64,000 bases of DNA, from contig JAGTRW010000033.1 in the NCBI GenBank assembly GCA_018262095.1, positions 1 to 64,000 of the forward strand, given 5' to 3'. Source of the stretch: Pseudomonadota bacterium (lineage in GTDB: Bacteria; Pseudomonadota; Gammaproteobacteria; Burkholderiales; Rhodocyclaceae). Positions 13,582 through 62,844 of this stretch are shown in pieces. Positions within the stretch are counted from its first letter, which is position 1; each line of letters opens with the position of its first letter. Made by a program: the position numbers and the translations under genes. Below the pieces are notes generated by a model. It was not told where the DNA came from and made no database searches. It saw only the letters and a program-made list of their open reading frames with translations.

Positions 13582-13757
13582 TAACCACAACGCGCACAAC
13601 GAACACAACGAACACAACGAACACAACGAACACAACGAAAAACAGAACAAATCCATGACTTCACGACGAATCCGACACTTCTGAAACGATTACGCGACGG
13701 TCGAATCAGCCTCTCGCGAACTGAATTTCGTTGTGCCCGCCGTGCTCGTTGTGGTTA
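13582..13757. repeat. Interspersed inverted-terminus intergenic element, copy A, with internal 9-bp tandem repeats
   Basis: The ends TAACCACAACG (13582-13592) and CGTTGTGGTTA (13747-13757) are perfect 11-bp inverted repeats. Inside the left end are five copies of CACAACGAA (13595-13639), preceded by the variant CACAACGCG (13586-13594). A second inverted motif, TTCGTTGTG, lies at 13727-13735. No open frame is evident inside. The element fills most of the gap between the DUF1854 gene and the first cphA gene. Copies B, C and D share the same ends. Confidence 0.75.
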
Positions 13758-13832
13758 ATTGCTGTCAGCCGAATACCCCGAGCCGCGTTATTCGGACGAT
13801 AATTGCACCCCTTCTGAGTCCACTCTGACGAT

Positions 13833-16010
13833 ATGAAAAACATCAAGTTTCTTGAATTCCGCCATCTGCGCGGACCGAACATCTGGACCTACCGCCCGGT
13901 CATTGAAGCCATCGTCGATATCGGGGAACTCGAAGACTTTCCGTCGAATACCTTGCCCGGTTTCGTCGATCGGCTCAAGGCGCTGCTGCCCTCGCTGATC
14001 GAGCACCGTTGCAGTTACGAGGAACGCGGCGGTTTCGTTCGCCGTCTCGAAGAAGGCACCTGGCCGGCGCACATCCTCGAACACGTCACGCTCGAACTGC
14101 AGAATCTGGCGGGGCTGCCGGGCGGTTTCGGCAAAGCGCGCGAGACCTCGGTGCGCGGCGTCTACAAAGTAGTCGTCCGCGCCTGGCAGGAAGACGTCAC
14201 GCACGCTGCGCTGCTCGAAGCGCGCGAGCTGATCATGTCGGCGATCGAAGATCGCCCGTTCGACGTCGAAGCGTCGATCGAAAAGCTCGCCGACATGGCC
14301 GACTCACTCTGCCTTGGCCCGTCGACCGCGAGCATCGTCGACGCCGCAGACGACCGCTACATCCCGTGCATCCGCCTGCTGGAAACCGGCAATCTGGTTC
14401 AACTGGGCTATGGTGCCGCGATGCGCCGCATCTGGACCGCCGAGACCGACCGTACCAGCGCGATCGCCGAGGGCATCTCGCGCGACAAGGACATGACCAA
14501 GTCGCTGCTGCAGTCGTGCGGCGTTCCGGTCCCCGAGGGGCGCGAAGTCGATAGCCCGGAAGACGCCTGGGAAGCGGCGCAGGACATCGGACTGCCGGTC
14601 TGCGTCAAGCCGGTCGATGGCAACCACGGGCGCGGCGTTTTCATCGACCTCAAGGGCCGTGAGGAAATTGAAATGGCCTTCAAGGTCGCCGTCGACGAAG
14701 GCAGCGGCGTTCTGGTCGAGCGCTCGATTCCCGGCACCGAGCACCGCCTGCTGATCATCGGCGGCAAGCTCGTCGCCGCCAACCGCGGCGACATGGTCAA
14801 GGTCACCGGCAACGGCAAATCGACGATCCTCGAACTGGTTGCCGAACAGATCAACTCCGATCCGCGCCGCGGCGCCAGCGAAAACCACCCGCTCAGCCTG
14901 ATCCGCATGGATTCGGCGGCCAAAATCGAGCTTTCGCGCCAAAAGCTCACGCCGGAAGCTATCCCCGACGCCGGCCGCGAGGTGCTGATCCAACGCAATG
15001 CCAACCATGAGTTCGACGTCACCGACGACGTACACCCGGACACCGCCGCGGCGGCTTCGCTGGCGGCGCGCATTGTCGGCCTCGATATCGCCGGCGTCGA
15101 TCTGGTCGTCGAAGACATTTCAAAGCCGCTGCGCGAACAAGGCGGCGCGATCGTCGAGGTCAATGCCGGTCCCGGCCTGCTGATGCACCTCAAGCCCGGC
15201 GTCGGCAAACCGCGTCCGGTCGGTCAGGCGATCGTCGAGCACCTGTTCCCCGACACCGCCACCAGCCGCATCCCGGTCGTCGGCATCACCGGTTCGCAGG
15301 GCAAGACTTCGGTCGCGCGCCTGCTCGCGCACCTGCTCCAACTCTCGGGAAAGAACGTCGGACTGGCCTGCAGCGACGGCCTGTTTCTTGGACCGCGGGC
15401 GCTCGAGAACAAGGACAGCGCCAATTGGCAATCGGCGCACCGCATGCTGATGGCGCGCGCCGTCGAAGCAGCCGTCTTCGAAAACGGCGCCGCCAGCATT
15501 CTGGGCGAAGGACTGGCGTACGACCGTTGCCAGGTCGGCGTCGTCACCAACCTCAAGCACGCCGAAGGACTTGAGGACTTCGACGTGCGTGACCTGGACA
15601 CCGTCTATAAGGTCTTGCGCACCCAAATCGACGTCGTTTTGCGCGGCGGCAAGTCGGTGCTCAACGCCGGCGATTCGCGCGTCGCCGAGATGGCCGAGCT
15701 ATCCGATGGTGAAGTGCTGTTTTTCGGCACCGATCCAGAGCTCCCGGTACTCACCGCGCACCGTGCCAAGAATGGTCGCAGCGTTTTTATCCGCGACGGC
15801 TGGGTCGCCCTGGCCAGCGGCAGCAGCGAGCAACAACTCATTCAAGTCAATAACTTGCCGATGATCGCGCCGCAAAGTCCCGGCTACCCGCTTGAAAACC
15901 TGTTGGCCGGTGTGGCCGCCGCCTGGGCGCTTGAACTGTCGCCCGATATCATTCGTGCTGGCGTCGCCACTTACGTCCCCGCCAGCAAAACCTCGGGCCT
16001 TGCCGCCTGA
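13833..16010 (+). CDS. cphA': Cyanophycin synthetase paralogue, short form (CphA')
   Basis: 725 residues with the cyanophycin synthetase order: N-terminal domain (about 1-160), ATP-grasp domain (about 200-470; VKPVDGNHGRGVF, IVEVNAGPGL) and a MurE-like ligase domain with P-loop GITGSQGKTSVARLL. It ends early compared with the 860-residue paralogue next door, lacking roughly the last 130-150 residues of the Mur ligase C-terminal region, and its P-loop has SQGKTS where the paralogue has TNGKTT. Short CphA' proteins paired with full CphA are known in betaproteobacteria such as Cupriavidus. It may elongate or prime the Asp-Arg polymer with its partner; the division of labour is inferred. Confidence 0.88.
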   Translation: MKNIKFLEFRHLRGPNIWTYRPVIEAIVDIGELEDFPSNTLPGFVDRLKALLPSLIEHRCSYEERGGFVRRLEEGTWPAHILEHVTLELQNLAGLPGGFGKARETSVRGVYKVVVRAWQEDVTHAALLEARELIMSAIEDRPFDVEASIEKLADMADSLCLGPSTASIVDAADDRYIPCIRLLETGNLVQLGYGAAMRRIWTAETDRTSAIAEGISRDKDMTKSLLQSCGVPVPEGREVDSPEDAWEAAQDIGLPVCVKPVDGNHGRGVFIDLKGREEIEMAFKVAVDEGSGVLVERSIPGTEHRLLIIGGKLVAANRGDMVKVTGNGKSTILELVAEQINSDPRRGASENHPLSLIRMDSAAKIELSRQKLTPEAIPDAGREVLIQRNANHEFDVTDDVHPDTAAAASLAARIVGLDIAGVDLVVEDISKPLREQGGAIVEVNAGPGLLMHLKPGVGKPRPVGQAIVEHLFPDTATSRIPVVGITGSQGKTSVARLLAHLLQLSGKNVGLACSDGLFLGPRALENKDSANWQSAHRMLMARAVEAAVFENGAASILGEGLAYDRCQVGVVTNLKHAEGLEDFDVRDLDTVYKVLRTQIDVVLRGGKSVLNAGDSRVAEMAELSDGEVLFFGTDPELPVLTAHRAKNGRSVFIRDGWVALASGSSEQQLIQVNNLPMIAPQSPGYPLENLLAGVAAAWALELSPDIIRAGVATYVPASKTSGLAA

Positions 16011-16036
16011 CCCTAACGCTACAGGAACAAAAGCAA

Positions 16037-18619
16037 ATGGAAGTCTCCCGCATCCGAGCATTGCGCGGCCCCAATCTGTGGAGCCGGCATACCGCCATCG
16101 AGGCGATCATCACCTGCAGCGAAAGCGAGCGCACGATAGGCACCATCCCCGGTTTCGAAGCGCGCTTGCGCGAACGCTTCCCGGAAATCGCGCTGCTCCA
16201 GCCGACGGTCAGCCATGACGTGGTATCGATGGCGCACGCGCTTGAATACGCGGCGCTCGGACTGCAGGCGCAGGCCGGCTGCCCGGTGACTTTCAGCCGC
16301 ACCGCGCAGACCCTCGAAGCGGGCGTCTACCAGGTGATCGTCGAATACAGCGAGGAAGAAGTTGGCCGACTGGCCTTCGAACTCGCGCAGCAGCTCTGCC
16401 AGGCCGCCGTCGACGATTCGCCGTTCGATATCGCCGGCGCGCTCGCTCGCTTACGCGAACTCGACGAAGACGTTCGCCTCGGGCCGTCGACCGGCTCTAT
16501 CGTTTACGCCGCGCTGGCGCGCAAGATCCCCTACCGTCGCCTCACCCAAGGCAGCATGGTGCAGTTCGGCTGGGGCAGCAAGCAGCGCCGCATCCAGGCC
16601 GCCGAAACCGACCGCACCAGCGCCGTCGCCGAAGCGATCGCGCAGGACAAGGAATTGACCAAGAAGCTGCTGCAGGCCGCCGGCGTTCCGGTGCCGACCG
16701 GGCGACCGGTCGAAGATGCGCAAGACGCCTGGAAAGCCGCCGGCGAGATCGGTGGCGCGGTCGTCGTCAAACCGCAGGACGGCAATCAGGGCAAGGGCGT
16801 TGCGGTCAATCTGACGACGCGCGAGCAGATCGAAGCCGCCTACGAAGTCGCCCACAAGGTCAGCGACGAGGTGCTGGTCGAACGCTATCTTCCGGGTCAG
16901 GACTATCGCTTGCTGGTGATCGGCGACAAGCTCGTCGCCGCCGCGCGCCGCGAACCGCCGCTGGTGATCGGCAACGGCGAGCAGACCGTTCGCCAGCTGG
17001 TCGATCAGGTCAACAGCGACCCGCGGCGCGGTGTCGGCCACGCCACCTCGCTGACGCGAATCCGTTTCGACGACATCGCGCTCGCCCGCCTGGCCGAAGA
17101 CGGACTGACCGCCGACTCGGTCCCGCCCAAGGGAATGCGTGTGATCCTGCGCAACAACGCCAACCTGTCGACCGGCGGAACGGCGACCGACGTCACCGAC
17201 GACGTCCATCCCGATTTCGCGGCGCGCGCGATCGCCGCCGCGCAGATGGTCGGCCTCGACATCGCCGGCGTCGACATCGTCTGCAACAACGTGTTGCGCC
17301 CGCTCGAGGAACAGGGCGGCGGCATCGTCGAACTCAACGCCGCGCCAGGCTTGCGCATGCACCTGCAGCCGTCGTACGGCAAGGGCCGCGCGGTCGGCGA
17401 AGCGATCATCGCCAATATGTTCGCGCCCGGCGACGACGCGCGCATCCCGCTCGTCGCGGTCGCCGGAACCAACGGCAAGACCACCACCGTTCGCCTGATC
17501 GCCAGCATTCTCGCCAACAATGGCCTGCGCGTCGGGATGACCACCACCGACGGCGTTTATGTCGAGAACAAGCGCATCGACACCGGCGACTGCAGCGGTC
17601 CGAAGAGCGCCCGCAACGTGCTGTTCCACCCCGACGTCGACGCCGCGGTGCTCGAAACGGCGCGCGGCGGCGTACTGCGCGAAGGCCTCGGTTTCGACCG
17701 CTGCGACGTCGCGGTGGTGACCAATATCGGCAAGGGCGATCACCTGGGCCTTTCTTACATCAGCACCGTCGAGGACCTCTCGGTAGTCAAGCGCGTGATC
17801 GTGCAGAACGTCAAGCCCGAGACCGGCGTCGCCGTACTCAACGCCGCCGATCCGATGGTCGCGCGAATGGCCGATTCGTGCCCCGGCCAGGTCACTTTCT
17901 TTGCCTGCGACCGCAACCATCCGGTGATGGCGATGCACCGCGCGCGCGGCAAACGAATCATCTACCTCGACAATGATGCGATCGTCGCCTCCGAAGGCGA
18001 GTTCAGCGAGCGCATCGCGGTCAAGGACATCCCGGTCACTGCCGGCGGCGCGATCGGCTTCCAGGTCGAAAACGCGATGGCCGCCATCGGTACCGGCTGG
18101 GCGCTCGGCCTGCCCTGGGAAGTCATCCGCCAAGGCCTGGCCGGCTTCATCAACGACGCCGAATCGGCGCCGGGTCGCTTCAACCGCTTCGACTATCGCG
18201 GCGCGACGCTGATCGCCGACTACGGTCACAACCCCGACGCCATCGCGGCGCTGGTCAGAGCCATCGACAACCTGCCCGCCGTGCCGGGAAGCCGCCGCTC
18301 GGTGGTGATCAGCGGCGCTGGCGACCGGCGCGACGAGGACATCCGCCAGCAGACCGAGATCCTCGGCGACGCCTTCGACACGGTGCTGCTCTATCAGGAT
18401 CAGTGCCAACGCGGTCGCGCCGACGGCGAGGTGCTGGCGCTGCTGCAACAGGGCCTCAAGAACGCCAAGCGCACCAAGCAGATCAAGGAAATCCACGGCG
18501 AATTCCTGGCCATCGACAGCGCGCTCGAAGGCCTCAAACCGGGCGACCTGTGCCTGATCCTGATCGACCAGGTCGAAGAAGCGCTGGCGCACATCGCCAA
18601 GCGCGTCGCCGAAGCCTGA
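16037..18619 (+). CDS. cphA: Cyanophycin synthetase
   Basis: 860 residues, the usual full length. It has an N-terminal domain, an ATP-grasp domain (VVVKPQDGNQGKGVAV, GGGIVELNAAPGLRMHL) that adds aspartate to the backbone, a Mur-ligase-like domain (AGTNGKTTTVRL, ETARGGVLREGLGFDRCDVAVVTN read in parts, FNRFDYRG, ADYGHNPDAI) and its C-terminal lobe, which adds arginine to the aspartate side chain. It makes the nitrogen and carbon reserve polymer multi-L-arginyl-poly-L-aspartate in the cytoplasm. It lies 26 bp after cphA', so the two are surely co-transcribed. No cyanophycinase gene is in the window. Confidence 0.97.
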   Translation: MEVSRIRALRGPNLWSRHTAIEAIITCSESERTIGTIPGFEARLRERFPEIALLQPTVSHDVVSMAHALEYAALGLQAQAGCPVTFSRTAQTLEAGVYQVIVEYSEEEVGRLAFELAQQLCQAAVDDSPFDIAGALARLRELDEDVRLGPSTGSIVYAALARKIPYRRLTQGSMVQFGWGSKQRRIQAAETDRTSAVAEAIAQDKELTKKLLQAAGVPVPTGRPVEDAQDAWKAAGEIGGAVVVKPQDGNQGKGVAVNLTTREQIEAAYEVAHKVSDEVLVERYLPGQDYRLLVIGDKLVAAARREPPLVIGNGEQTVRQLVDQVNSDPRRGVGHATSLTRIRFDDIALARLAEDGLTADSVPPKGMRVILRNNANLSTGGTATDVTDDVHPDFAARAIAAAQMVGLDIAGVDIVCNNVLRPLEEQGGGIVELNAAPGLRMHLQPSYGKGRAVGEAIIANMFAPGDDARIPLVAVAGTNGKTTTVRLIASILANNGLRVGMTTTDGVYVENKRIDTGDCSGPKSARNVLFHPDVDAAVLETARGGVLREGLGFDRCDVAVVTNIGKGDHLGLSYISTVEDLSVVKRVIVQNVKPETGVAVLNAADPMVARMADSCPGQVTFFACDRNHPVMAMHRARGKRIIYLDNDAIVASEGEFSERIAVKDIPVTAGGAIGFQVENAMAAIGTGWALGLPWEVIRQGLAGFINDAESAPGRFNRFDYRGATLIADYGHNPDAIAALVRAIDNLPAVPGSRRSVVISGAGDRRDEDIRQQTEILGDAFDTVLLYQDQCQRGRADGEVLALLQQGLKNAKRTKQIKEIHGEFLAIDSALEGLKPGDLCLILIDQVEEALAHIAKRVAEA

Positions 18620-18645
18620 ACCGCTAAACCTAAAATCTGCAGTTC

Positions 18646-18751
18646 TAACCACAACGACACAACGAAGAACCCTGGCTTTTGCTGTTCTTGAGGTCCATCT
18701 CATGAGTAATACACGAGCACCTCGCAAGTAATTGTTTTTTCGTTGTGTTTA
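18646..18751. repeat. Interspersed inverted-terminus intergenic element, copy B
   Basis: The left end TAACCACAACG (18646-18656) is followed by ACACAACGAAGAAC; the right end is CGTTGTGTTTA (18741-18751), differing from the perfect inverse at one position. It is the shortest copy (106 bp), lies between the convergent cphA and racemase genes, and is preceded by a T-run (18734-18740) before the right end. It could act as a bidirectional terminator-like hairpin. Confidence 0.65.
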
Positions 18752-18765
18752 ACTGAATTTTCAGG

Positions 18766-20226
18766 CTAAACAGCCGTCCGCTGGCACAGGCTGACGCACT
18801 TCCTGGCCAGGATTTCGGTCGGATCGAGAATTGCGACGACCTTGCCGGCGACCGCGAAGGCGTCGTTCTGCGCGATCAACAGCGGTAGCTCGGTACAGCC
18901 GAGAATGATCACTTCGGCACCGCGTTCAACCAGAGAGGCGAGCGCGTGCAGCAGGTCGTCGACGCAGGGCCCCGCGGTAAAACCGGCCTTGACGCCCTGC
19001 TCGCCATAGATCGCGTCCATCACCAGCGCCTGGTTCTGGGGGTCGGGGACCAGCAGCGTCAATCCCACCTTGGCGACCACGTCGTGGTAAACGCCGCTCT
19101 TGACCGTCCCGTCGGTCGCCAGCAGGCCGATCAGCGTCGGCTCGGGAAACGTTTTCTTGATGTGCTCGACCGTCTCGAACAGCATGTTGACCACCGGTAT
19201 CGACAGATGCGGCGCGATGCGCTCGATGAAGGCGTGCGCGGTATTGCACGGAATCGCGATGAGGTCGGCGTCGTCGGCTTCGAGCTTTTTGCACGTCGAA
19301 TAGAGCGCGATCGTCGGATCGGCGCCGTCGCCGATCAGATACTCGGTCCGGTCGGGGATCTGCGGGTTCTGCTCGACGACCAGCTTGACGTGCTCCTGGT
19401 CGCGCAGCGCGTGCGTGTTGCGAACGATTTTGCTCATGAAATCGACCGTCGCCGCCGGGCCGACGCCGCCGACGACGCCGATCTTGAACGGCCGCGGCGC
19501 AGCGCTGGCGTGCTGCGCGACGGCATAGCGCGCATAGACCTGATTGGCGTCGAAAATCGGCAGGCCGCGTTCGGCGAGCGCTTCGACGACCAGCGCGATC
19601 TCGGCAAACCCTGGAACGATCAGCTCAGCGCCCTGCGCGGAGAGATCGCTGCAGGCCTTGGCCAACAAGTCGACCGAAGCGCCTTGCAGGTAACCGGCCT
19701 TGATCCCTTCGGCGCCGTAGATCGCCGCCATCAGACAAGCGCGCTGAACGTCGTCGCGCGGATAAACGAGTTCCCAGCGGTCGGCGGCAAAGTAACGCTC
19801 GAACAGGCGCTGACCGCGGACATAGTCCGAAGTCAGCACGCCCAGTTTGCGCACCGCCGGATGGCGACGCCTGATGTATTCCACCAGCGCCTCCATGAAA
19901 TTGACGATGGGCACGCGGACTTCGGCCTGCAGTTCGTCGAGAAAGACATGACTGATGAAGCACGGCAGAATGATCGCATCGACCTGGCGCGATTCGAAGC
20001 TGCGGATCAAGTCATAAACGTAGAGCTGGCGGCCGCTCTGGCTCGCCGACCGAGCGCCCGGCGAATCGCCTTCGCGAAAGGGATGCTGTTCGAAGATGAA
20101 CTCCGGCTGCTGCGCGCCGGAGGTCGCGGCGACCGCGCGAACGAGCTTGAAGAAGACGTCGGCGGCACTCAAGGTACCGAGACCGCCGACGATGCCGTAG
20201 CAGTATCTGCTGCGCTTTTCGGTCAT
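18766..20226 (-). CDS. Tandem-fused aspartate/glutamate racemase family protein
   Basis: 486 residues made of two Asp/Glu racemase domains in a row (about 8-240 and 247-482). Each begins with a matching strand-loop (YGIVGGLGTLSAAD and IGVVGGVGPAATVDF). The second domain keeps both catalytic cysteines, C327 in IPCNTAH and C444 in LGCTELP. The first keeps only C89 in LPCFISH; the second Cys position is Phe207 (VPGFAEI). The N-terminal half is therefore probably not a racemase and may be structural or regulatory. It lies 20 bp after aspA on the same strand and next to cphA, which points to aspartate as substrate. Confidence 0.85.
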   Translation of the reverse strand: MTEKRSRYCYGIVGGLGTLSAADVFFKLVRAVAATSGAQQPEFIFEQHPFREGDSPGARSASQSGRQLYVYDLIRSFESRQVDAIILPCFISHVFLDELQAEVRVPIVNFMEALVEYIRRRHPAVRKLGVLTSDYVRGQRLFERYFAADRWELVYPRDDVQRACLMAAIYGAEGIKAGYLQGASVDLLAKACSDLSAQGAELIVPGFAEIALVVEALAERGLPIFDANQVYARYAVAQHASAAPRPFKIGVVGGVGPAATVDFMSKIVRNTHALRDQEHVKLVVEQNPQIPDRTEYLIGDGADPTIALYSTCKKLEADDADLIAIPCNTAHAFIERIAPHLSIPVVNMLFETVEHIKKTFPEPTLIGLLATDGTVKSGVYHDVVAKVGLTLLVPDPQNQALVMDAIYGEQGVKAGFTAGPCVDDLLHALASLVERGAEVIILGCTELPLLIAQNDAFAVAGKVVAILDPTEILARKCVSLCQRTAV

Positions 20227-20246
20227 CGCCGGTTCCGCCGCCGTCG

Positions 20247-21686
<1,440 letters not shown>

Positions 21687-21751
21687 GCTTTTCTCCATGA
21701 CGGGTTGCGGTGTAATGATGCTAGCGCCGTTGCGAAGATTCTGGTCACGTC

Positions 21752-21766
21752 ATGCAAAAATCGCAT
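21752..21766. promoter_or_regulatory. LysR-type T-N11-A box between aspA and the LysR gene
   Basis: ATGC-AAAAATC-GCAT at 21752-21766 is a perfect 4-bp inverted repeat in the T-N11-A format of LysR binding sites. It lies 51 bp before the LysR start and 66 bp before the aspA start, the expected place for shared control of a divergent pair. Confidence 0.5.
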
Positions 21767-21816
21767 AACCTGTCGTCAAAACCCGAATAGCAGCGAAGCC
21801 AGAGCGGAGACAAAAC

Positions 21817-22728
21817 ATGCAAATAAAATGGCTCGAGGACTTTCTCAGCCTCAGCGACGCGCGCGCCTTCTCGCGCGCGGCCGAGCGCCGCAACCTCTCG
21901 CAGCCGGCCTTGAGCCGCCACATCCAGGCGCTCGAAGACTGGCTGGGCGTCGAACTGGTCGATCGCCGGCAGCAAGGCGTGCAGTTGACGGCGGCCGGCC
22001 GGATCTTCCGCGGCTTCGCCGCCGACCTGCTGCGCCAGACCTACGACATGCGCACGGTAATCCGCGGGCAGGCGCCCAGCGGCAACGACATGGTCCGTTT
22101 TTCCGTCGCCCACACCTTGTCGCTGACCTATTTTCCGCACTGGCTCAAGATCCTCAAGCAGAAGCTTGGCAACGTCGTCGCGCACGTCAGCGCGGTCAAC
22201 GTCCAGGAGGCCGCTGGCGCGCTGATCGAGGGGGCGACCGACCTGCTGATCATCTACCACCATCCGCAGTTGCCGGTCTTGCTCGACGCGCATCGCTTTC
22301 CGCACCTGATGCTGTCGACCGACCGGATGCTGCCGTTTTCAGCGCCGCGCGACGATGGTCGCCCGCGCTATACGCTGCCGGGCAGCGGCTCGTCGCCAGT
22401 CCCTTTGCTCGCCTATTCGTCGGGAACCTATCTCGCGCACGTCGTCGAAATGATCCTGCTCGGTGCCGCCGAACGCTGCTGCTTCGAGCACTCGTTCGAC
22501 ACGCACATGGCCGAGGCCTTGAAAGAAATGATCATCGAGGGGCACGGTCTGGGCTGGCTGCCGGAGAGTTGCGTCGGGCGCGAAATGGCCGACGGTCTAC
22601 TGGTCACGGCCGGGCCTGCGCGCTGGACCTGCCCGCTTGAAGTGCGCCTTTATCGCTGCGCCGACAGCAGCAACCCGATGGTCGAGAAAATATGGGCCTT
22701 CCTGCTCGCCGGATCAGCCACTGCCTGA
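21817..22728 (+). CDS. LysR family transcriptional regulator
   Basis: 303 residues: an N-terminal winged helix-turn-helix (WLEDFLSLSDARAFSRAAERRNLSQPALSRHI region, about residues 5-65) and a periplasmic-binding-protein-like effector domain (about 92-298). It is divergent from aspA with a T-N11-A box in between, so it is the likely regulator of aspA and the downstream racemase. The ligand is unknown; a C4-dicarboxylate or aspartate would be a reasonable guess. It is convergent with the next gene, with only 6 bp between stops. Confidence 0.92.
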   Translation: MQIKWLEDFLSLSDARAFSRAAERRNLSQPALSRHIQALEDWLGVELVDRRQQGVQLTAAGRIFRGFAADLLRQTYDMRTVIRGQAPSGNDMVRFSVAHTLSLTYFPHWLKILKQKLGNVVAHVSAVNVQEAAGALIEGATDLLIIYHHPQLPVLLDAHRFPHLMLSTDRMLPFSAPRDDGRPRYTLPGSGSSPVPLLAYSSGTYLAHVVEMILLGAAERCCFEHSFDTHMAEALKEMIIEGHGLGWLPESCVGREMADGLLVTAGPARWTCPLEVRLYRCADSSNPMVEKIWAFLLAGSATA

Positions 22729-22734
22729 ACCGTC

Positions 22735-23673: not shown

Positions 23674-23751
23674 CAGAACCCCATACGTGCGAAGCAAAAG
23701 ACGCGAAAATTCCGAAACGGAAAAGCTCGCGCCGTCCATTATGCGAATACT

Positions 23752-23765
23752 TTGGATTAGGTCAA
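23752..23765. promoter_or_regulatory. Weak FNR/Dnr-like box
   Basis: TTGGATTAGGTCAA keeps the outer TTG and CAA of the FNR consensus but has three mismatches in the inner positions. It lies between the siroheme-decarboxylase-like gene and the divergent SCO gene. Anaerobic or nitrogen-oxide control would make sense for both, but the match is marginal. Confidence 0.25.
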
Positions 23766-23842
23766 ATAAATTCCGGATAGTTGCCGGACAATGCAAAAGT
23801 AGATCTTTCGGTGGATAATCGCCAAAGCCTCGGAGCAACACG

Positions 23843-24519: not shown

Positions 24520-24551
24520 TTCTTGCCCCGCAACCGCACAAAGGAAATTTC

Positions 24552-51693: not shown

Positions 51694-51703
51694 TTTCAAT
51701 TCC

Positions 51704-53425: not shown

Positions 53426-53816
53426 GACGGTCCTCCGACCCAATTTTGTAATCGCGCGATGCTACGCGCTAATTGTGACAAAGTGACGTTCGCCGCGAAG
53501 TTTCTGCGCGCCTTCGACTTGCCACTCCGGGGGATATTTCCATCGCCGCACACGCCGGGCACCGAGCGATGGCAGTTGGCGCGCCAGCACTGACGGTTCA
53601 ACCCGCACCGGGCGCAACTGCAGAGATTTTAACGTAACGCAGCGGCCCGGTATCGTCGTGGTCGACGCCGAAGCGATTGGCGGCCACGGCAAGCTCAGCG
53701 GTGGAGTCAAGCACATCGCCTTCAATGATCACGTCGTTAAAAATCCGGTCTTACGTCGTGGCGCATTGGTCGCCTTGCTGATGAGTCCGACCGGCCAGGC
53801 CACCGGCGGCCGCGCC
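53426..53816. other. Gene-poor interval with no confident coding region
   Basis: About 390 bp between the fused permease and the remnant below. A minus-strand frame from GTG 53732 to 53598 encodes 44 residues (short segment AANRFGVDHDDTG) with no recognised homology. The plus-strand frame running through here into the downstream remnant is also unrecognised before 53817. It may hold decayed coding sequence and the promoter of the permease gene. Confidence 0.4.
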
Positions 53817-53978
53817 AACAGCCTGCGGGTACCGGCCAACAAGACCTTCAAGCCGGACCCCAGGATTCCGCTGCTCGACGACGTGCGCCTGATCAAGTAC
53901 GACTTCGAGAAATACGGCAAGGCCGCCGAACACCGTCGGCTACTCGACCGCTGGACAAAGGAAGTCGAATCGCGCCGC
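53817..53978 (+). pseudogene. C-terminal remnant of an AfuA/FbpA-type substrate-binding protein
   Basis: The plus-strand translation matches the C-terminus of the binding protein encoded at 58183-59032: shared pattern NK, DPR, P, IKYD/INYD, KYG, AE-RRL, RW, V-S over 54 residues (for example LIKYDFEKYGKAAEHRR here against FINYDYAKYGASAERRR there). Nothing upstream resembles the rest of the protein, and the frame runs on past the end into the tail of the convergent HAD gene. It is a fragment of a second, lost binding-protein gene in opposite orientation. Confidence 0.75.
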
Positions 53979-53992
53979 GCTGAACCAGACGC

Positions 53993-54793
53993 TCAGCGGG
54001 TCTGTCCGCGCAACCGGCCTTGCGCCAATTCGGCGAGCATCGTCGCGATGCCGTCGAGGTGCAAGGCCGGAGCGACGTGATCGGCGGCCGCCTTGGCCGT
54101 CGGATGGCCGTTGCCCATCGCCACGCCGACGCCGGCGCCCCGCAGCATCTCGATGTCGTTGAGGCCGTCGCCGAAAGCGATCGCCTGTTCGGGCGCGAAG
54201 CCGGTCTGCGCCATCACCCACTGGCAAGCCGTCCACTTATTGACCGCGCGCGGCATGACGTCGATCACCCGCCGGTGCCAGCGCACCAGGTCGAACTCGG
54301 GAAAGCGCTCGAGGATCTGCGGATAGAGGCTCTCATCGAGGCTTTCGTCGAAGAACAGCCAGCCCTGATAGACATCCTGCGACAGATAGAAGCGCGAATC
54401 GCTTTGCACCGCCATGTCGACCGAGCCCATCGCCTCGACCACCCAGGGCAGCTGATCGCTGACGTAACCCTCGCTGCCGTTGTTGATTCCGAAAACGTGT
54501 CCCTGCGCCTGCATCCAGTCGAACAGCGCGAGCAGCGGTGCACGCGGCAGCGGGATGGCCAGCACCTCCTGGTCGTCCTTGAGGATGCGCGCGCCGTTCT
54601 GGGTGATCACGTAACTCGGCCTGATCTGATCGACGATAGTCTTGGCGTGGCCATAGCTGCGCCCGGTGGCGATCACCACCGTATTGCCGGCGCGCCGCAG
54701 CGCTTCGATGGCCGCCAGTGCCGACGCGGGAACCGCCATCGTCGCGTGGTCGAGCAGCGTATTGTCGATGTCGAAGAAATATATTTTTGTCAT
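53993..54793 (-). CDS. Cof-type HAD family hydrolase
   Basis: About 266 residues. HAD motif I FFDIDNTLLD, motif II ATGRS, motif III Lys in AVNKWTA and motif IV FGDGLNDIEML, with the large C2B-type cap (about 80-190). Cof-type enzymes dephosphorylate sugar phosphates and nucleotide or pyridoxal phosphates. ATG 54793 (MTKIYFF) preferred over 54805. It follows the ABC ATPase by about 58 bp on the same strand, so a role in dephosphorylating an imported phosphorylated compound is possible but only inferred. Confidence 0.88.
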   Translation of the reverse strand: MTKIYFFDIDNTLLDHATMAVPASALAAIEALRRAGNTVVIATGRSYGHAKTIVDQIRPSYVITQNGARILKDDQEVLAIPLPRAPLLALFDWMQAQGHVFGINNGSEGYVSDQLPWVVEAMGSVDMAVQSDSRFYLSQDVYQGWLFFDESLDESLYPQILERFPEFDLVRWHRRVIDVMPRAVNKWTACQWVMAQTGFAPEQAIAFGDGLNDIEMLRGAGVGVAMGNGHPTAKAAADHVAPALHLDGIATMLAELAQGRLRGQTR

Positions 54794-54851
54794 GTATTTG
54801 TGCAAAAAATTGCCTGTTTTGGAGCGCAGCGAGGCTGGCCGGGCCTGCAGT

Positions 54852-55907
<1,056 letters not shown>

Positions 55908-55968
55908 GCTGTTCTTTCGTCCAGGAATATTGTCCGATGTTGCCCGCTGTTGCCCAATCGCCGGCAGC

Positions 55969-58179
55969 TCACAGCGCCGGCAGCGGCGCGACGAGCGCGC
56001 CCGATTTTCGGCGGCCGAGGCGGCGCTCGCCGACCAGCAACTGAATCAGCGCGATGACCAGCGACATCAGGATGATCAGCACCGTGCAATAGGCCAGCGC
56101 GACGCCGTAATCGCCGTTGCCGACGCGGCCGATGATATAGGTCGTCGCCAGCTCGTTTTCGGCAGTGACCAGGAAAATCACCGCGCTGACGGTGGTCATC
56201 GCTCGCGCGAAACTGTAGACGAGCGCCGCGACCAGCGCCGGCTTGAGCAGCGGCAGCACGACGTGAAACAGCGTCTGCGCGGCCGACGCGCGCAGCATCA
56301 GCGACGCTTCGTCGAGCGACTTGTCGAGCTGCTTGAACGCCGCGGTGCCGGCGCGAACGCCGACCGGCAGGTTGCGGAACATGAAGCAGAGCACGATGAT
56401 CAGCCCGGTGCCGGTGAGTTCGACCGGCGGCACGTTGAACGCCAGGATGTAGCTCACGCCGAGCACCGTCCCCGGAATCGCGAAGGCGAGCAGCGCGACG
56501 AACTCGAAGAGTCCGCGCCCCTTGAACTCGGTTCGCGCCAGCAGGTAGGCGATGAGCAGACCGACGCCCGCGGTCATCGGTGCCGAGATTCCGGCGAGCT
56601 TGAGCGTGGTAAACAGCGAGTTCCACGCGGTGCCCGCCCAGATCAGCCCGAACTGCCCCCACTCGAGTCCGAAGGCGGTCTTGAAGTGGGTCAGCGTCAG
56701 GGTGTAATCGCGCCCCCAGGTCTGCACGAAGCCGCCGGCGAAGGCGAACAGGTAGACGATCACGGTGAACGCCAGCCACGGGTAGACCACCGCGTTGAGC
56801 AGGCGGCGAACCGAGTCGGGCAGCGCCATGGCGATCCCCGCGTCGCCCTTGCCGCTCACCGTGGTATAGCTCTGCTTGCCGAGCAGGCCGCGCTGGATGG
56901 CGAAGACGAGCAGCGCGAAAACCGTCAGGATCCACGCCAGCGACGCGGCGCGACCCTGATCGTACTGGGCGCCGACGATGGCGAAGAAGATGTCGGTCGA
57001 CAGCACCGAGAACTGACCGCCGACGACCACCGGGTTGCCGAAGTCGGCGATGCTCTCGATGAAGCCGACCAGGAAGGCGTTGGCGAGGCCCGGTTTGAGC
57101 AGCGGCAGCGTGATCGTCAGGAAGGTCTGCCGGCGGTCGGCGCGCAGCGTCTGCGCCGCCTCCTCGAGGCTCGGCGCGACGCCTTGCACGACGCCGCGCA
57201 TGATCATGAAGGCGATCGGCGTGAACGCGAAGAGCTGTGCGATCCAGACGCCGAGAACGCCGTAGAACCAGCGCGTCGGCTCGATGGCGAAGGCGTATTC
57301 GAGCAACTGGTTGACGATTCCGGCGCGGCCGAAGAGCAGGATCAGGCCCAGCCCGACGACGAATGGCGGGGTGATGATCGGCAGCAGCGCGACGACGCGC
57401 AGCGGCGCCTGGACGCGCGGACCGGCGCTGCGTTCGGCGAGCAGCGCCATCATCGTGCCGAGCACGGTGGTCCCGGCGGCGCTCGCCAGCGCCAGAAAGA
57501 GCGTATTCCAGGCGACGCCGCAACGCACGCCGCCGGCCAGGCAGGAAAGTCCCCAGACGCGCTCGTTGCCGATGCGCTCGTAGATCGCGGTCACCGACCA
57601 GATTCCGTCCTCGGTCAGGAAAGCGCCGTAGAGCGCCTTGCTCACCGGAAAGACGATGAACAGCACGAGCAGCGCCGAACACGAAACGACCGCCGAGGCG
57701 ATGAACTGATCGCCCTTGAAGTAGCCGCGCCGCGCCAGACCAAAGGCGCTGATCACGGTGAGCGCGAGCAGCGTCGCGAAAGCGCCGATACCGATGCCGA
57801 ACTGGTTGATCGCCAGCTCGCCGAACTGCGCGTTGAGATACTCGAACGACCAGCCGCGCGCGCCGATCGCAAAACCGCTGGCCAGCAGGCCGAGCAAGCC
57901 AATGAGCCCGCCGGCGAGCAGCCAGTGGCTCTGCGCGCGGCCGACCGGAACGCGCAGGCCGACCGCCGCGATGCCAAGGCCGAGCAGGCCGACGAGCAAC
58001 CAGGCGCGCCCGTTGGCCAATGCCTGAACGATGCCGTTGGCCGTCTCCAAGCCGCTCCAGACCTGCGGCAGCACGCTGTACCAGGCGGTATCCTGGATCG
58101 CGTACCACGGCACCACGAGGTAGGCCAAGAGGCCGGCCGCCAGCCACCACACCAGCGCCTTGTTGGGGTTCTTGTTCAT
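55969..58179 (-). CDS. ABC transporter permease, two fused permease domains (AfuB/FbpB type)
   Basis: 736 residues. An N-terminal extension with about five extra helices (about 10-200) is followed by two BPD_transp_1 units with EAA loops (PSLEEAAQTLRADRRQTFLTI and KSLDEASLMLRASAAQTLFHV, each a separate segment). It is longer than most FbpB proteins and comparable to AfuB. It lies only 3 bp after the frame-shifted binding-protein gene and feeds the ATPase gene downstream, so the operon structure is intact apart from the lesion in the binding protein. Confidence 0.92.
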   Translation of the reverse strand: MNKNPNKALVWWLAAGLLAYLVVPWYAIQDTAWYSVLPQVWSGLETANGIVQALANGRAWLLVGLLGLGIAAVGLRVPVGRAQSHWLLAGGLIGLLGLLASGFAIGARGWSFEYLNAQFGELAINQFGIGIGAFATLLALTVISAFGLARRGYFKGDQFIASAVVSCSALLVLFIVFPVSKALYGAFLTEDGIWSVTAIYERIGNERVWGLSCLAGGVRCGVAWNTLFLALASAAGTTVLGTMMALLAERSAGPRVQAPLRVVALLPIITPPFVVGLGLILLFGRAGIVNQLLEYAFAIEPTRWFYGVLGVWIAQLFAFTPIAFMIMRGVVQGVAPSLEEAAQTLRADRRQTFLTITLPLLKPGLANAFLVGFIESIADFGNPVVVGGQFSVLSTDIFFAIVGAQYDQGRAASLAWILTVFALLVFAIQRGLLGKQSYTTVSGKGDAGIAMALPDSVRRLLNAVVYPWLAFTVIVYLFAFAGGFVQTWGRDYTLTLTHFKTAFGLEWGQFGLIWAGTAWNSLFTTLKLAGISAPMTAGVGLLIAYLLARTEFKGRGLFEFVALLAFAIPGTVLGVSYILAFNVPPVELTGTGLIIVLCFMFRNLPVGVRAGTAAFKQLDKSLDEASLMLRASAAQTLFHVVLPLLKPALVAALVYSFARAMTTVSAVIFLVTAENELATTYIIGRVGNGDYGVALAYCTVLIILMSLVIALIQLLVGERRLGRRKSGALVAPLPAL

Positions 58180-58182
58180 TAT

Positions 58183-59032
58183 TTAACGCGGCAGCGAATT
58201 GACGTCCTTCTCCCAGCGCGCGATCAGTCGCCGGCGCTCGGCGCTGGCGCCGTACTTGGCGTAGTCGTAGTTGATGAACTTGATCTTGGTGAAGTCGGGA
58301 ACGCGCGGATCGACCTTGGCGAATTTGTTCGACGGCAGCTGGAACTGCTTGACCGCCGCAGCCATTTCCTGCGCCGCCGGCGTCAGCGCCCACTCGTAGA
58401 ACTTCTTGGCGGCGGCGAGATTGCGCGCGCCCTTGATGATGCTCATCGAACCGATCTCGGCGCCGGTCCCTTCGCTCGGCGTGATCGATTCGACCGGGAA
58501 GCCGTTGAGTTTTTCGCCCGGCGCGTCGTGCACGAAGCTGATCGACACCGCCGTTTCGCCGCGCGCGACGGCCTTGATCGGACCGGTACCGGTACGCGAA
58601 TACTGGCCGATGGGTGTTGTAGCCGAATCCGAGCGGCCCTGAGTAGATGCCGACGGTCCTGAATTTCGCCTGCTGCGCCTGCTGCTGTGCCCACGGCTGA
58701 AGCTGATCGAGGCTCGGCGATTTGTACTCGAGCGACAGCCCCTGCTCGGCGGCCTGCAGATGCGGGTCGCCGGTGCCGCCAAACCAGATGTCGGTCTTGG
58801 GGTTGTCCTTCTCGGCGATCAGTTGCGCCAGCGCCTCGCCCGAGCCCTTCATGCTGACGTTGATCTTGACCCCGGTGGTGCGCGCATAGACGGTGCCGAT
58901 CATATTGCACCACTCCGCTTGCGCCGAGCAGATCACGTTGACCTGGTCGGCGGCGTGCGCACCGGTTGCAGCGAAGGTGAACGACGCGGCGAGGCTAAGC
59001 CCGGCGGCGAGGTGACGAACATTTGCTGCCAT
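58183..59032 (-). pseudogene. AfuA/FbpA-type substrate-binding protein gene with internal frame-shifting deletion
   Basis: From ATG 59032 (GGGAG 7 nt upstream) the frame encodes a signal peptide ending AHAA and a normal binding-protein N-terminus (NVICSAQAEWCNMIG, KTDIWFGGTGDP) to GPLGFGYNT at about 58613. The family continuation of roughly 50-65 residues is absent. The protein resumes in another frame at about 58610 with GQYSRTGTGPIKAVARG and runs normally to its stop. A deletion whose length is not a multiple of three has removed the middle of the gene; the rest is undecayed. An assembly collapse is the alternative. Confidence 0.87.
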
Positions 59033-59082
59033 GAGGATTCTCCCTTGCTCTGATGGATTGGTTTGCAGCGATGCCGGCTGGT

Positions 59083-59904
59083 TCAGATCAGCTTGCGCCG
59101 GAAATAGGTAATGACCACTTCGCCGATCACGACGACCGCGAAGATCGTCAGCAGGATCACCGCGACGCGGTCCCACTGGAACAGATCGATTGCCGCGTTC
59201 ATCGCCATGCCGAGACCGCCGGCGCCGACCAGGCCGAGTACCGACGATTCGCGAACGTTGATGTCCCAGCGCAGCAGCATGATCGACCAGAACGCCGGCT
59301 TAACCGCCGGCCAGTAGCCGTAAAGGATCTGGCTGCCCTGCGTGGCACCGGCGGCCTTGAGCGCTTCGATCGAGCCGCGCGGCACCTCTTCGAGCGCTTC
59401 GCCGAGCAACTTGCCGACGAAGCCGACCGAGCGACAGGCGATGGCGACCGTACCGGCGAGCGGTCCGGGGCCGAATACCGCGACGAAAAGCAGTGCCCAG
59501 ACCAGCGAATTGACCGAGCGGCTGGCCACCAGCATGGTCTTGGCGAACAGGTTGAGCCCGGCGTGCGGCGTGATGTTGTGCGCCGCGAGGATCGCCAGCG
59601 GCAGCGCCAGGACCATCGAGAACAGCGTTCCCAGCGTCGCGATGTGGAAGGTCTCGAGCAGCGCCGCATGGACGGTCGCCGGGTAATACGGAAAATCGAG
59701 CGGCCACATGCGGCTGCCCATGTCGGCCATCTGCTCTGGGGCATCCCACAGGAACTCCCAGATCACGCTGATGCTGCTCAGCGAGAGCAGCACCGCAACG
59801 CCGATCAACAGCCACAGCGACAAGCGCGACAGCTTCTGCGCCAGCGTGTGACGTTGCCAGACGCGACTCATCAGCGGCGTCGCCGTCAGCTCATGACTCA
59901 CCAT
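59083..59904 (-). CDS. phnE: Phosphonate/phosphite-type ABC transporter permease (PhnE family), second copy
   Basis: 273 residues with about six membrane helices and the PhnE-type EAA loop (LGEALEEVPRGSIEALKAAGAT, GLVGAGGLGMAMNAAI). It pairs with the first PhnE to form the membrane channel. It overlaps that gene by 14 bp. ATG 59904 is the first start; 59871 is an alternative. Divergence from the other PhnE indicates a heterodimeric channel as in PtxC/HtxC-type or PhnE1E2 systems. Confidence 0.92.
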   Translation of the reverse strand: MVSHELTATPLMSRVWQRHTLAQKLSRLSLWLLIGVAVLLSLSSISVIWEFLWDAPEQMADMGSRMWPLDFPYYPATVHAALLETFHIATLGTLFSMVLALPLAILAAHNITPHAGLNLFAKTMLVASRSVNSLVWALLFVAVFGPGPLAGTVAIACRSVGFVGKLLGEALEEVPRGSIEALKAAGATQGSQILYGYWPAVKPAFWSIMLLRWDINVRESSVLGLVGAGGLGMAMNAAIDLFQWDRVAVILLTIFAVVVIGEVVITYFRRKLI

Positions 59905-60688
59905 TGAAAATCCTCTTGACGTAGTTGGCGAGCAGTTCGCCGAGCAGAACGACGGCGATGATGGTGATCAGGATCGCCAGCACGAAGTCGTATTCGAAGC
60001 GCTGGAAGGCGGCGAACAGCGTGCCGCCGATGCCGCCGGCGCCGACGATGCCGACCATCGTCGAATTGCGCAGATTGGCGTCGAGCTGGTAGGTGCAAAA
60101 GCCGACCAGCCGCCCCATCACCTGCGGCAGCACGCCGAAAGCGACGACGCTGGCAAACGGCGCGCCGGTCGCGCGGATCGCCTCGATCTGCTTCATCGAA
60201 ATTTCCTCGATCGCCTCCATGAACAGTTTGCCGACGAAACCGATCGACCCCATCACCAGTGCCAGCACGCCGGCAAGCGCGCCGAAGCCGACCGCCTTGA
60301 TGAAGATGATGGCGACGATCACCGGATTGAAGGCGCGGCACAGCGTGACGATCAGTCGCGCTGGCCAAGTCGCCCACGACGGCATCAGGTTGCGCGCGCC
60401 GAGGATGGCGATCGGCAGCGAAATCAGCACGCCGAAGAAAGTCGCCAGCACCGCGATCTGCATGCTCTCGATGAAACCGGTGAGCAGCTGGTCCCAGTTC
60501 TTGAAGCTCGGCGGGAACATGCGGTCGAGAAAGCGCGCGCCGTTGTCGATTCCCTTGACGAAACGCGGCCACGAGAAATCGAGCTGACCGAGCGCGTAGC
60601 ACGCATAGGCAAGGATAAACAGCGCCAGCAGCTTGGCGCCCAGCGAAGACTCGAATGGCCGCGCCGCGGGAATGCTGGCCGAGCTCAT
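59891..60688 (-). CDS. phnE: Phosphonate/phosphite-type ABC transporter permease (PhnE family), first copy
   Basis: 265 residues with about six membrane helices, EAA loop ([20 protein letters not shown]) and [22 protein letters not shown] motif (read in two parts). ATGA overlap of 4 bp with phnC. Function: inner-membrane path for phosphonate, phosphite or related phosphorus compounds. Substrate cannot be told from the permease. Confidence 0.93.
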
Positions 60689-61443
60689 TGCAACCAGCCC
60701 TCGCCGCCGTAGATCAGCTTGAGGTGATCGTCGGTCAAGCGGCTGGGCAGCCCGTCAAAGACCACGCGGCCACCGGTCATGCCGACGATGCGGTCGGCGA
60801 AGCGTTTGGCCAGTTCGACGTCGTGCATATTGACCAGCACCGGAATCTTGTTGTCCTCGCCCTGCGACTTGAGCAACTCCATGATTTCGACCGAGGTCTT
60901 GGGGTCGAGCGACGACGTCGGTTCGTCGGCGAGCAGCAGCTCGGGGCGCTGCATCAGCGCGCGCGCGATGCCGACGCGCTGGCGCTGGCCGCCGGACAGG
61001 CTGTCGGCGCGCTGGTTGGCAAAATTCGACAGGCCGATCACGTCGAGCAACTGGTAGGCATGCTCGATGTCCTCTTGCGGAAACCGTCTGAGCCAGGCCT
61101 TGAGCGGGCTGAGGTAGCCCAGGCGACCGCAGAGCAGGTTCTCCATCACGCTCAGCCGTTCGACCAGGTTGTATTCCTGAAAGACCATGCCGATGCGTCG
61201 GCGCAGCTCGCGCAACTGCCGACCGTGGATGCGCGAGAGGTCCTCGCCCTTGAACACGATCGTTCCGTCGCCCGGATCGACCAGGCGATTGATGATCCTG
61301 ACCAGCGTCGATTTGCCGGTTCCCGACGAACCGATGATCGCGGTCAGACCGCGTTCGTCGAAATCGAGATCGATCCCCTTGAGCACCGGAACGCCCGGTT
61401 TGTAGGCCTTGGTCAAGCCTTGAATACTCAATACCACTGACAT
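60685..61443 (-). CDS. phnC: Phosphonate/phosphite-type ABC transporter ATP-binding protein
   Basis: 252 residues: Walker [11 protein letters not shown]-loop [11 protein letters not shown], the PhnC-type segment [15 protein letters not shown], signature [15 protein letters not shown], Walker [13 protein letters not shown] and H-loop MHDVELA. ATG 61443 is used, as the TTG-initiated frame to 61485 lies inside repeat copy C. It starts 209 bp after the second phnD, with a repeat element in between. Confidence 0.94.
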
Positions 61444-61467
61444 CTCAATAACCCTTAAAAACTCAGT

Positions 61468-61622
61468 TAGCCACAACGAACACAACGATCACGAAGAAAA
61501 GACAACTACTTGCAACGTATTGATGAATCACCCAGAAGGCGAGTCACCGAAATCTCCAAAAAAAGATCTTCGTTGTCCCGCGGGATTTGCTTCGCGGCAT
61601 GTCCGTTGTGTCGTTGTGGTTC
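61468..61622. repeat. Interspersed inverted-terminus intergenic element, copy C
   Basis: Left end TAGCCACAACG (61468-61478), followed by AACACAACGATCACGAAG; right end CGTTGTGGTTC (61612-61622), with a second CGTTGTG just before it. Core CCACAACG/CGTTGTGG is perfectly inverted. The interior shares long similarity with copy D (GATCACGA near the left, AGATCTTCGTTGT near the centre, GCGGCATGT near the right). Length 155 bp. It sits between phnD copy 2 and phnC. Confidence 0.75.
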
Positions 61623-61651
61623 GAACTGTGGCTTCTGGGACGACCATTCAA

Positions 61652-62668
61652 TTACTTCTTCTTGGCGCGCTCGGCGTCGTAACCGGCGCGGCTCAGGCTC
61701 TGCCCGGCCGACACCGCGACCTGGCGAACCAGCTCCCAGTCCTTCTTGTAATCAGCTGGCAGGAAGCGGTCGCCGCCCAAGCCCTTGGCCATTTCCGGCG
61801 GAATCTTGTAATCGAAGAAGCAGGCCTTGATCTTCTCGACGAGCTTGGGTTCAAGGTCGTGCGCATAGGCATACGAATCGGTCGGGAACAGCGCGCTGGT
61901 ATAGAGCGTGGTGAAGTCGTCAGCCTTGACCACGCCGCGTTCGATCATGTGCTGCAACACGTCGCTGGCGACCGGCGCGGCGTCGTAGTCGCCCGATTTG
62001 ACGCCGAGAATCGACTGGTCGTGCTTGCCCGAGTAGACCACCTGGTAATCCTTGTCGGGGGTCAGCCCGAGCGGCGGGAACAGCGCGCGCGGCGCGAGGT
62101 TGCCGGAATTGGACGACGGCGAGGCGTGGGCGATCTTCTTGCCCTTGAGATCGGCGAGCTTCTTGTACGGGCTGTCCTTGCGAACGATCATCTGCACCGA
62201 GACGCCCTCCGGCCCCTTGGCTGTGCCGCGGATCGCGAACGGCACGGCGCCGGCGATATTGACCGCGAAGTTGGTCGGCCCGGTTGAAAATGCCGCGAGG
62301 TGCAAGCGGCCTGAGCGCATCGCCTCGATCTGCGCCGAATTGGACTGCACCGCGAAGAACATCGTCTTCTTGCCGACGCACTGCGAGAGGTAACCCATGA
62401 ACGGCTGGAACAGCTTCTCGTAGACCGACGGGTCCTCGACCGGGGTAAACGCGAAAACCAGCGTATTGGGGTCGCGAAACTTCTTGGGGTCGGTCGGCGC
62501 GTCGGCGACCATGTCCTTGTTGGCGTCGCAATACATCTCGTCGAGTTCGCCGCGGTAGGGACAGTTATCCTGCGCGACAAGCGCTGTGCTGCCGAGCGCT
62601 GCGCCGAGCAGCGCGCAAACGACGACCGATCGCCCGAACGCGCGGGCATTTTTGAGACTCATCTTCAT
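61652..62668 (-). CDS. phnD: Phosphonate/phosphite-type ABC transporter substrate-binding protein, copy 2
   Basis: 338 residues with a signal peptide and the PhnD fold (EDPSVYEKLFQPFMGYL, FSTGPTNFAVN, KHDQSILGVKSGDYDAAPVASD). The mature N-terminus carries CPYRGELDEMYCDANKDMVAD: two Cys that could be disulfide-linked and a DxNxDxxxD stretch resembling a calcium loop. It is a diverged tandem copy of the phnD upstream. ATG 62668 has AAAGGG upstream. Flanked on both sides by related repeat elements. Confidence 0.93.
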   Translation of the reverse strand: MKMSLKNARAFGRSVVVCALLGAALGSTALVAQDNCPYRGELDEMYCDANKDMVADAPTDPKKFRDPNTLVFAFTPVEDPSVYEKLFQPFMGYLSQCVGKKTMFFAVQSNSAQIEAMRSGRLHLAAFSTGPTNFAVNIAGAVPFAIRGTAKGPEGVSVQMIVRKDSPYKKLADLKGKKIAHASPSSNSGNLAPRALFPPLGLTPDKDYQVVYSGKHDQSILGVKSGDYDAAPVASDVLQHMIERGVVKADDFTTLYTSALFPTDSYAYAHDLEPKLVEKIKACFFDYKIPPEMAKGLGGDRFLPADYKKDWELVRQVAVSAGQSLSRAGYDAERAKKK

Positions 62669-62705
62669 TGCATCACCCTTTGTAGATATCCGCGAAAAAA
62701 TAGGT

Positions 62706-62844
62706 TAACCACAACGATCACGACGAGAAACAATTACCGGCAAGGTGTTGAAGCCCCCCCAGAAGGTGGGTTACCCCCCAAAGGATCTTCGTTGTGGCCG
62801 TCGTCCCCCAAGGGCATTTCCTGCGGGGCATGTCGTTGTGGTCA
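62706..62844. repeat. Interspersed inverted-terminus intergenic element, copy D
   Basis: Left end TAACCACAACG (62706-62716), then ATCACGACGAG; right end CGTTGTGGTCA (62834-62844). The core is perfectly inverted. The interior matches copy C in order and spacing, with AGGATCTTCGTTGTGG near the middle and GGGGCATGT near the right end. Length 139 bp. It sits between the two tandem phnD genes. Confidence 0.75.

Follow-up and report, generated by a model that had tools for sequence, protein, structure and literature searches.

The DNA considered here, a 64,000-nucleotide stretch (the window) of contig JAGTRW010000033.1 from a Rhodocyclaceae bacterium (assembly GCA_018262095.1), contains four short repeats whose conserved ends face each other in inverse orientation. 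These four intervals had been pointed out in a preliminary description of the window, and we found them in the sequence as described (Table 1). They belong to a large family of elements that have inserted at gene ends, and the architecture of their ends recurs on both sides of some genes for GxxExxY proteins.

Copy 1 begins directly after the stop codon (13575-13577) of a plus-strand open reading frame (ORF) at 11016-13577. Copy 2 sits between converging ORFs at 16037-18619 (plus strand) and 18766-20226 (minus strand), and positions 18766-18768, within the right part of its flanking duplication, are the TAG stop codon of the latter. The outer end of copy 4 overlaps with the stop codon (62851-62853) of a minus-strand ORF at 62851-63885. 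No clear target duplication was found at copies 1, 3 and 4 in the window.

Table 1. Positions in the window of the four repeat copies and of the duplicated target site at copy 2
Feature	Position	Strand	Remarks
Copy 1 (L003)	13578..13763	none	Outer limits approximate; 13582-13757 in the preliminary description; six left and three right units
Copy 2	18629..18765	none	18646-18751 in the preliminary description; full ends CCTAAAAT...ATTTTCAGG
Left target-site duplication of copy 2, CTAAA	18624..18628	none	From sequence
Right target-site duplication of copy 2, CTAAA	18766..18770	none	From sequence and ORF end
Copy 3	61452..61639	none	61468-61622 in the preliminary description; limits from alignment with L022 and by eye
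Copy 4	62690..62856	none	Outer limits approximate; 62706-62844 in the preliminary description

A repeat family with arms of tandem units

Each end of these elements is built from 9-bp units in tandem (CACRRCG plus 1-2 nt), usually three of them, and the two ends are inverse to each other. The outer unit is ACCACRRCG, usually followed by two further CACRRCG units with 1-2 bases between them. Units within one element are mostly of a single class, CACRACG or CACRGCG, which is common to both arms, and the spacers, read from outer to inner, frequently run GG, AA in one arm and AA, GG in the opposite arm.

Occurrence of the family was assessed in the source genome assembly (G000; 4,796,982 bases in 82 contigs of a draft, 97.68% complete). 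In the window, CCACAACG was found 8 times compared to 2.14 expected, a count reached in 0 of 100 shuffles. Across the whole genome, AACCACAACG occurred 78 times (9 for the reversed-pattern control), CACAACGAACACAACG with at most two mismatches 120 times (0 in the control) and ACCACRRCGRNCACRRCG 110 times (0 in the control). A script run on fetched stretches returned 103 candidates, 8 of which were dropped for two mismatches in the outer units. The remaining 95 catalogued copies span 69-243 bp between outer units, with a doubtful end in two of them (L062 and L273). In 407,646 bases of reversed sequence, a total in which overlapping loci are counted repeatedly, the script listed 5 candidates. 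Exactly three units were present in each arm in 65 of the 95 copies, and two copies had one arm of six units.

Window copy 2 was missed by the script because its right outer unit is degenerate (CGTTGTGTTTA); it is additional to the catalogue and brings the number of elements compared to 96. Every one of these had a BLAST partner at E<1e-6, and 40 of the 96 had a partner that aligned with 80% or more of their length (the best such alignment had 89% identity over 164 bp). Copy 1 matches other copies in its arms only (best, 88% over 59 bp), copy 2 aligns through its interior with L002 (72% over 130 bp), copy 3 does so in inverted orientation with L022 (76% over 190 bp) and L017 (86% over 127 bp), and copy 4 aligns in part with L056 (74% over 106 bp). 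Neither outcome that would have refuted the preliminary description, namely genome-wide counts at chance level or copies that never align beyond a short core, was observed.

Some copies contain further repeats. The six-unit arms belong to copy 1 and L031; that of copy 1 is a near-perfect 9-bp tandem array, which suggests expansion by slippage. A nested, hairpin-like insert of ~27 bp (CATGCC...GGGA-like) was seen inside arm units. It invariably follows the CA of CACRRCG, can lie in either arm and occurs among copies with different interiors. It is present in the right arms of window copies 3 and 4, and in copies from G000 it was counted in 14 elements by one parse and in 15 of 190 arms by another (13-15 arms overall). 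The insert is possibly a second mobile repeat, for which the arm unit would be the target. In addition, L263 (1399-1518) and L296 (1152-1384) are near-identical copies, one of which has an extra interior repeat of ~110 bp (GTCATTCCCGCGAACGCGGGAATCC...); this repeat is a nested insertion and belongs to another family, which is also present in L021.

Of 297 genomes of the bacterial family, 11 contained the strict three-unit pattern, and most occurrences were in G000 (67) and G014 (42). With the reversed control, there was 1 occurrence in G033, 2 in G335 and none elsewhere. Within the genus, the element load is strongly uneven and patchy. Among the matches listed, paired arms were also seen in Accumulibacter Cf509_bin25 and UBA704, Propionivibrio bin EsbE, Gammaproteobacteria Dive96_bin4.222 and Proteobacteria SZAS-58, and single matches in GC-rich genomes are in many cases probably due to chance. 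G007 (L073) and Propionivibrio bin EsbE (L145) contain one identical element sequence, a match that places the genus.

Contigs of a viral collection had the same arm architecture with CACGAAG and CACAGAG units. The 169 viral loci among the matches listed contained 51 arm pairs, 40 of which were at most 300 bp long, and a unit was common to both arms in 30 of these 40. The longer pairs enclosed mixed ORFs, among which inspection by eye revealed no shared gene. Related elements that have the same architecture but other unit sequences are widespread and constitute a broad superfamily. In a 13.8-kb stretch of one viral locus (L189; IMGVR_UViG_3300029258_005854), arm pairs made of GAA and AAC/GAC units occur several times, together with ORFs with repeated EGRRQKAEG-like peptides, another environmental repeat.

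Insertion at gene ends

The true ends of the elements lie outside the intervals first described. The preliminary description was right about their inverse, conserved ends but placed them too far inward: conservation in pooled flanks extends to about -13 (A-tract), and the insertion boundary is ~16-21 bp outside ACCAC. A scan for direct repeats between left and right flanks peaked at 19 bp on the left and 18 bp on the right, where 10 copies had a 4-mer common to both flanks compared to 0.65 expected. Copies with clear ends start with a CCTARAAA-like sequence and finish with a TTTTCCAGG- or TTTCTAGG-like sequence.

Direct repeats of at least 5 bp ending 16-21 bp outside were present in 18 of the 95 copies, compared to a mean of 4.3 and a maximum of 10 in 200 shuffles; target-site duplications, which had been named as a check on the preliminary description, were detected in part of the copies. 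For repeats of at least 4 bp, the corresponding numbers were 29 and 13.7 (maximum, 24), with 11 and 9 at control offsets. TGA or TCA was found within 12 of the 18 longer duplications, namely ATGAA (three times), TTCAT (twice), TTGAA, TTCAA, ATTCAA, TTGAAA, GTTGA, AATGA and CATGAG. Repeats of at least 4 bp overlapped with the upstream stop codon at 28 of 53 sides (mean of 14.0 and maximum of 21 in 100 shuffles), and in L022 and L281 an ATGAA duplication comprises one gene's stop codon together with the start of the following gene.

Position relative to genes was analyzed with a purpose-built, simple codon-usage gene caller, by which 90 of the 95 copies could be classified and five could not. 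Copies were located between same-strand genes in 73 cases, between convergent genes in 11 and between divergent genes in 6. The earlier statement that all copies lie strictly between genes fits 92 of the 95 catalogued copies, and the other 3 overlap a called gene; element ends frequently touch a stop codon. In the 73 tandem copies, the median distance from the upstream stop codon to ACCAC was 19 bp (interquartile range, 13-28), the median from the far element end to the next start was 36 bp (19-50), and 50 copies were nearer the stop whereas 22 were nearer the start.

Comparison with relatives revealed empty sites. Of 23 relative loci, 8 allowed both flanks of copy 1 to be placed, and in all 8 the gene pair was present and the element absent; flanks of copy 2 could not be placed in relatives. 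The evidence is stronger for a copy at L060, between purD and the gene for oxygen-dependent coproporphyrinogen oxidase, which has ATGATC on both flanks. In G007 and G022, these two genes overlap in ATGATC, which is the exact empty site with an intact stop/start overlap. We examined 26 relative loci for this junction (a weak locus in G020 was unused); the purD end was present in 25 and the oxidase gene was adjacent in 12. Spacing in these 12 comprised 2 overlaps, 7 gaps of 5-10 bp and 3 longer gaps, so that 9 of the 12 had a gap of at most 10 bp. The longer ones were 90 bp in G003 (no arms seen), 144 bp in G010 with CACCAAGG units and 189 bp in G008 with CACAGAG units. Among the other 13 purD loci, G014 has a CACGACG arm after purD, as judged by eye. 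Since different units follow purD across relatives, elements with different units occupy the same gene end in different species. Runs of GACAGAG-like units were also noticed by eye after purD in G004 (L524), G024 (L527) and G012 (L528, together with an inverse run); these are possibly further unit types of the same architecture.

Taken together, duplications, empty sites and gene-end position show that the copies are insertions at gene ends. The preliminary description had also mentioned a structured RNA/terminator family. In a proposal of this kind, the copies would be structured RNAs or bidirectional terminators kept by selection, whose similarity reflects shared function and local duplication. 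Location just after stop codons, A-tract and T-tract flanks, and strong folding (z<-2 in 64 of the 73 tandem copies) are consistent with this proposal, though any inverted repeat would fold strongly. Other features of the arms disagree with it. The variable position of the unit had no in-register covariation (agreement at position 4 in 34/59, 26/55 and 25/44 of cognate units, and in, for example, 45/59 and 36/55 of non-cognate units), and G-U was not preferred in transcript orientation (33 G-U versus 39 A-C). Asymmetric arms had no strand preference (8 versus 7). Without covariation and without a G-U or strand preference, the arms look like DNA signals rather than a selected RNA hairpin. Moreover, A-tract and T-tract were equal on the two sides of tandem copies (3.95 versus 3.93), the sole terminator-like site in 61300-63000 falls outside the copies, and neither the window nor six loci with copies had an Rfam match. 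With target duplications and empty sites also against it, an RNA or terminator function is very improbable as the origin of the family.

GxxExxY genes between arms

A suspicion that GxxExxY and four-helix-bundle genes occur near such repeats served as a lead only. The GxxExxY family PF13366 had a match in 36 of 229 genomes of the class. In 10 of the 30 returned loci (two of which, L536 and L546, are close relatives), the gene was flanked on either side by paired units that had the expected orientation, and one further locus had them on one side. The same analysis detected no two-sided bracketing in any of the controls, which were 20 loci of RAYTs (tyrosine transposases associated with repetitive extragenic palindromic, REP, sequences), 30 shifted windows, 27 purD loci and 23 window-region relatives. 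One-sided cases numbered two among the shifted windows and two among the purD loci. In L532, L537 and L542, one arm immediately precedes the start codon of the GxxExxY gene and the other immediately follows its stop codon. A separate observation was made in L551 (~1855-1900), where the arm downstream of the GxxExxY gene apparently forms the beginning of the following ORF (ATGAGTAACTCTGTGTCC...); arm sequence may have turned protein-coding there.

Several GxxExxY genes were found in other genomic contexts. A gene on a Bacteroides finegoldii plasmid, with radA and an FAD-dependent protein gene as its neighbours, has CACAGAG-type arms by eye. In a Sphingomonas plasmid (between fabD and fabG) and in Bernardetia (between ade and a guanylyltransferase gene), the flanks are only partly similar to arms. 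In a Gemmatirosa plasmid, two gene-less copies with CGCAGAG units lie one on either side of the GxxExxY gene. This record had 8 arm pairs in the four 50-kb stretches examined, 5 of them with the same unit in both arms, compared to 0 in the reversed sequence.

All four GxxExxY proteins that were scanned matched TIGR04256 (E<=3.3e-43) and PF13366 (E<=3.8e-42). Weak similarity to Cas4 was detected in two of the four (PADLOC, E 0.0004-0.02; Pfam Cas4, under its cut-off), and a comparison of solved structures with the GxxExxY profile gave no match at E<=1. As read from the listing of the 10 bracketed proteins, ExK and QxxxY are kept in all 10 and a preceding D in 8, an arrangement (D...ExK...QxxxY) that we take to be the PD-(D/E)XK motifs of RecB/Cas4-type nucleases. 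The units in gene-bearing arms (CACAGAG, CACGGAG and CACGAAG) differ from the CACRRCG units of the window family. The window copies have the same end architecture as the arm-GxxExxY-arm element and the same kind of arms as these TIGR04256/PF13366 loci, but they are gene-less and are not gene-carrying members.

Possible mobilisation and its implications

By copy number, inverted ends, duplications and empty sites, the copies are similar to miniature inverted-repeat transposable elements (MITEs). Together with the patchy distribution in the genus, these features bear out the suggestion of a non-autonomous palindromic element. The 9-bp unit, the targeting of gene ends and the relatives with a nuclease gene lay beyond what the preliminary description could reveal. 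No autonomous partner was found, as G000 (an 82-contig draft) had no match to PF13366 or PF01797 and other transposase families were not searched. PF05635 (23S intervening-sequence protein) had no match in G000 either, but its controls also gave none.

We favor, with a probability of roughly 0.6, the following explanation: these are short non-autonomous MITE-like elements of a superfamily whose full-length form is arm-GxxExxY-arm, and the nuclease moves gene-less copies in trans. The arms, about three tandem 9-bp units in inverse orientation, lie inside a terminal CCTRRAAA-like sequence. A GxxExxY nuclease, or a relative that was lost from G000 or is unassembled, would recognise the arms and insert the elements at stop codons, and the window copies would be gene-less forms moved in trans. 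Insertion makes a target-site duplication of 4-6 bp with a bias to gene ends, often including a stop codon or an ATGA stop/start overlap. Where such an overlap is duplicated, both neighbouring genes stay intact. The bias itself may come from target choice combined with loss of harmful insertions. In this scheme, mobilisation by the GxxExxY nuclease is the step that we infer.

A check for a RAYT gene had also been suggested, and elements of the REPIN type mobilised by this Y1 transposase are likewise palindromic, extragenic and of high copy number. However, PF01797, which was matched in 18 of 28 genomes of the genus, had no match in G000 and a single, partial one in the element-rich G014, and arms were present on both sides in none of the 20 RAYT loci. 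A REPIN/RAYT system is thus largely refuted for G000, and we give it hardly any credence for the family. REP/REPIN systems with RAYTs share with the window family palindromic structure, extragenic location, many copies and presumed mobilisation in trans; the window family differs in its larger elements, its target duplications and the lack of a RAYT in G000. Articles on REP/REPIN systems include PMC3116915, PMC8266576 and PMC3733652.

Terminal inverted repeats and duplications of 4-6 bp are typical of DDE elements. The copies could accordingly be ordinary MITEs moved by a DDE-type insertion sequence, with the GxxExxY gene being a passenger, or else an unrelated gene that occupies similar arms. 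The inverted ends and duplications fit this possibility, as do the absence of GxxExxY from G000 and the unbracketed GxxExxY loci. On the other hand, no such insertion sequence was seen between arms, though DDE transposase families were not searched for, and bracketing by arms was seen at 10 of the 30 GxxExxY loci but at none of the 100 controls. We consider a DDE origin unlikely, although far from negligible.

Several observations weigh against the GxxExxY explanation. Bracketing was not seen in 20 of the 30 GxxExxY loci (19 without any arm and 1 one-sided). The PF13366 search gave no match in an assembly that is 97.68% complete; over the fetched loci, the GxxExxY profile matched only L532-L561, none with CACRRCG arms, and a GxxExxY search of the viral contigs gave no confirmed match. 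Among the listed viral matches, 10 of the 40 short arm pairs had no common unit. As for insertion, at the offset where a duplication is expected, 77 of the 95 copies lack one of at least 5 bp, and the 4-bp repeats found there are partly chance. Tandem placement is not distinctive alone because intergenic gaps of at least 40 bp in the window are split 17/2/4 between tandem, convergent and divergent. A conventional transposase may instead move the elements.

Among known prokaryotic MITEs (background in PMC10969869 and PMC4853749), the Chunjie MITE of Geobacter uraniireducens (PMC10969869) is likewise short, intergenic and variable in size, with inverted ends and with flanking direct repeats at some of its copies. 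Going by the published description, the window family is set apart by its 9-bp-unit arms, stop-codon duplications and nuclease-gene relatives. No description of 9-bp-unit arms, or of their link with GxxExxY, was found in the open-access literature searched. Chunjie, too, reportedly inserted into an operon without disturbing it. In the excerpts that were returned from this literature, matches to the unit sequences as strings were judged unrelated, and GxxExxY appeared in passing mentions only.

A broader proposal can be made tentatively, and we consider it less likely than not: the elements may represent a widespread class, not described in the literature searched, that has inverse arms of 9-bp units, relies on a single small Cas4/RecB-like PD-(D/E)XK nuclease (GxxExxY) and spares operons by inserting at stop codons or stop/start overlaps, with unit and nuclease co-diverging between lineages and gene-less copies far outnumbering full-length ones.

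The explanation favored here offers a testable account of common, unexplained intergenic repeats, i.e., runs of CACAACG, CACAGAG and CACGAAG units, and a candidate job for the GxxExxY nuclease family. It also describes a way into an operon, even between overlapping genes, by which the stop and start codons of both genes are kept. If it is true that the nuclease moves these elements, a Cas4-like enzyme would act as a transposition enzyme with the stop codon as its target.

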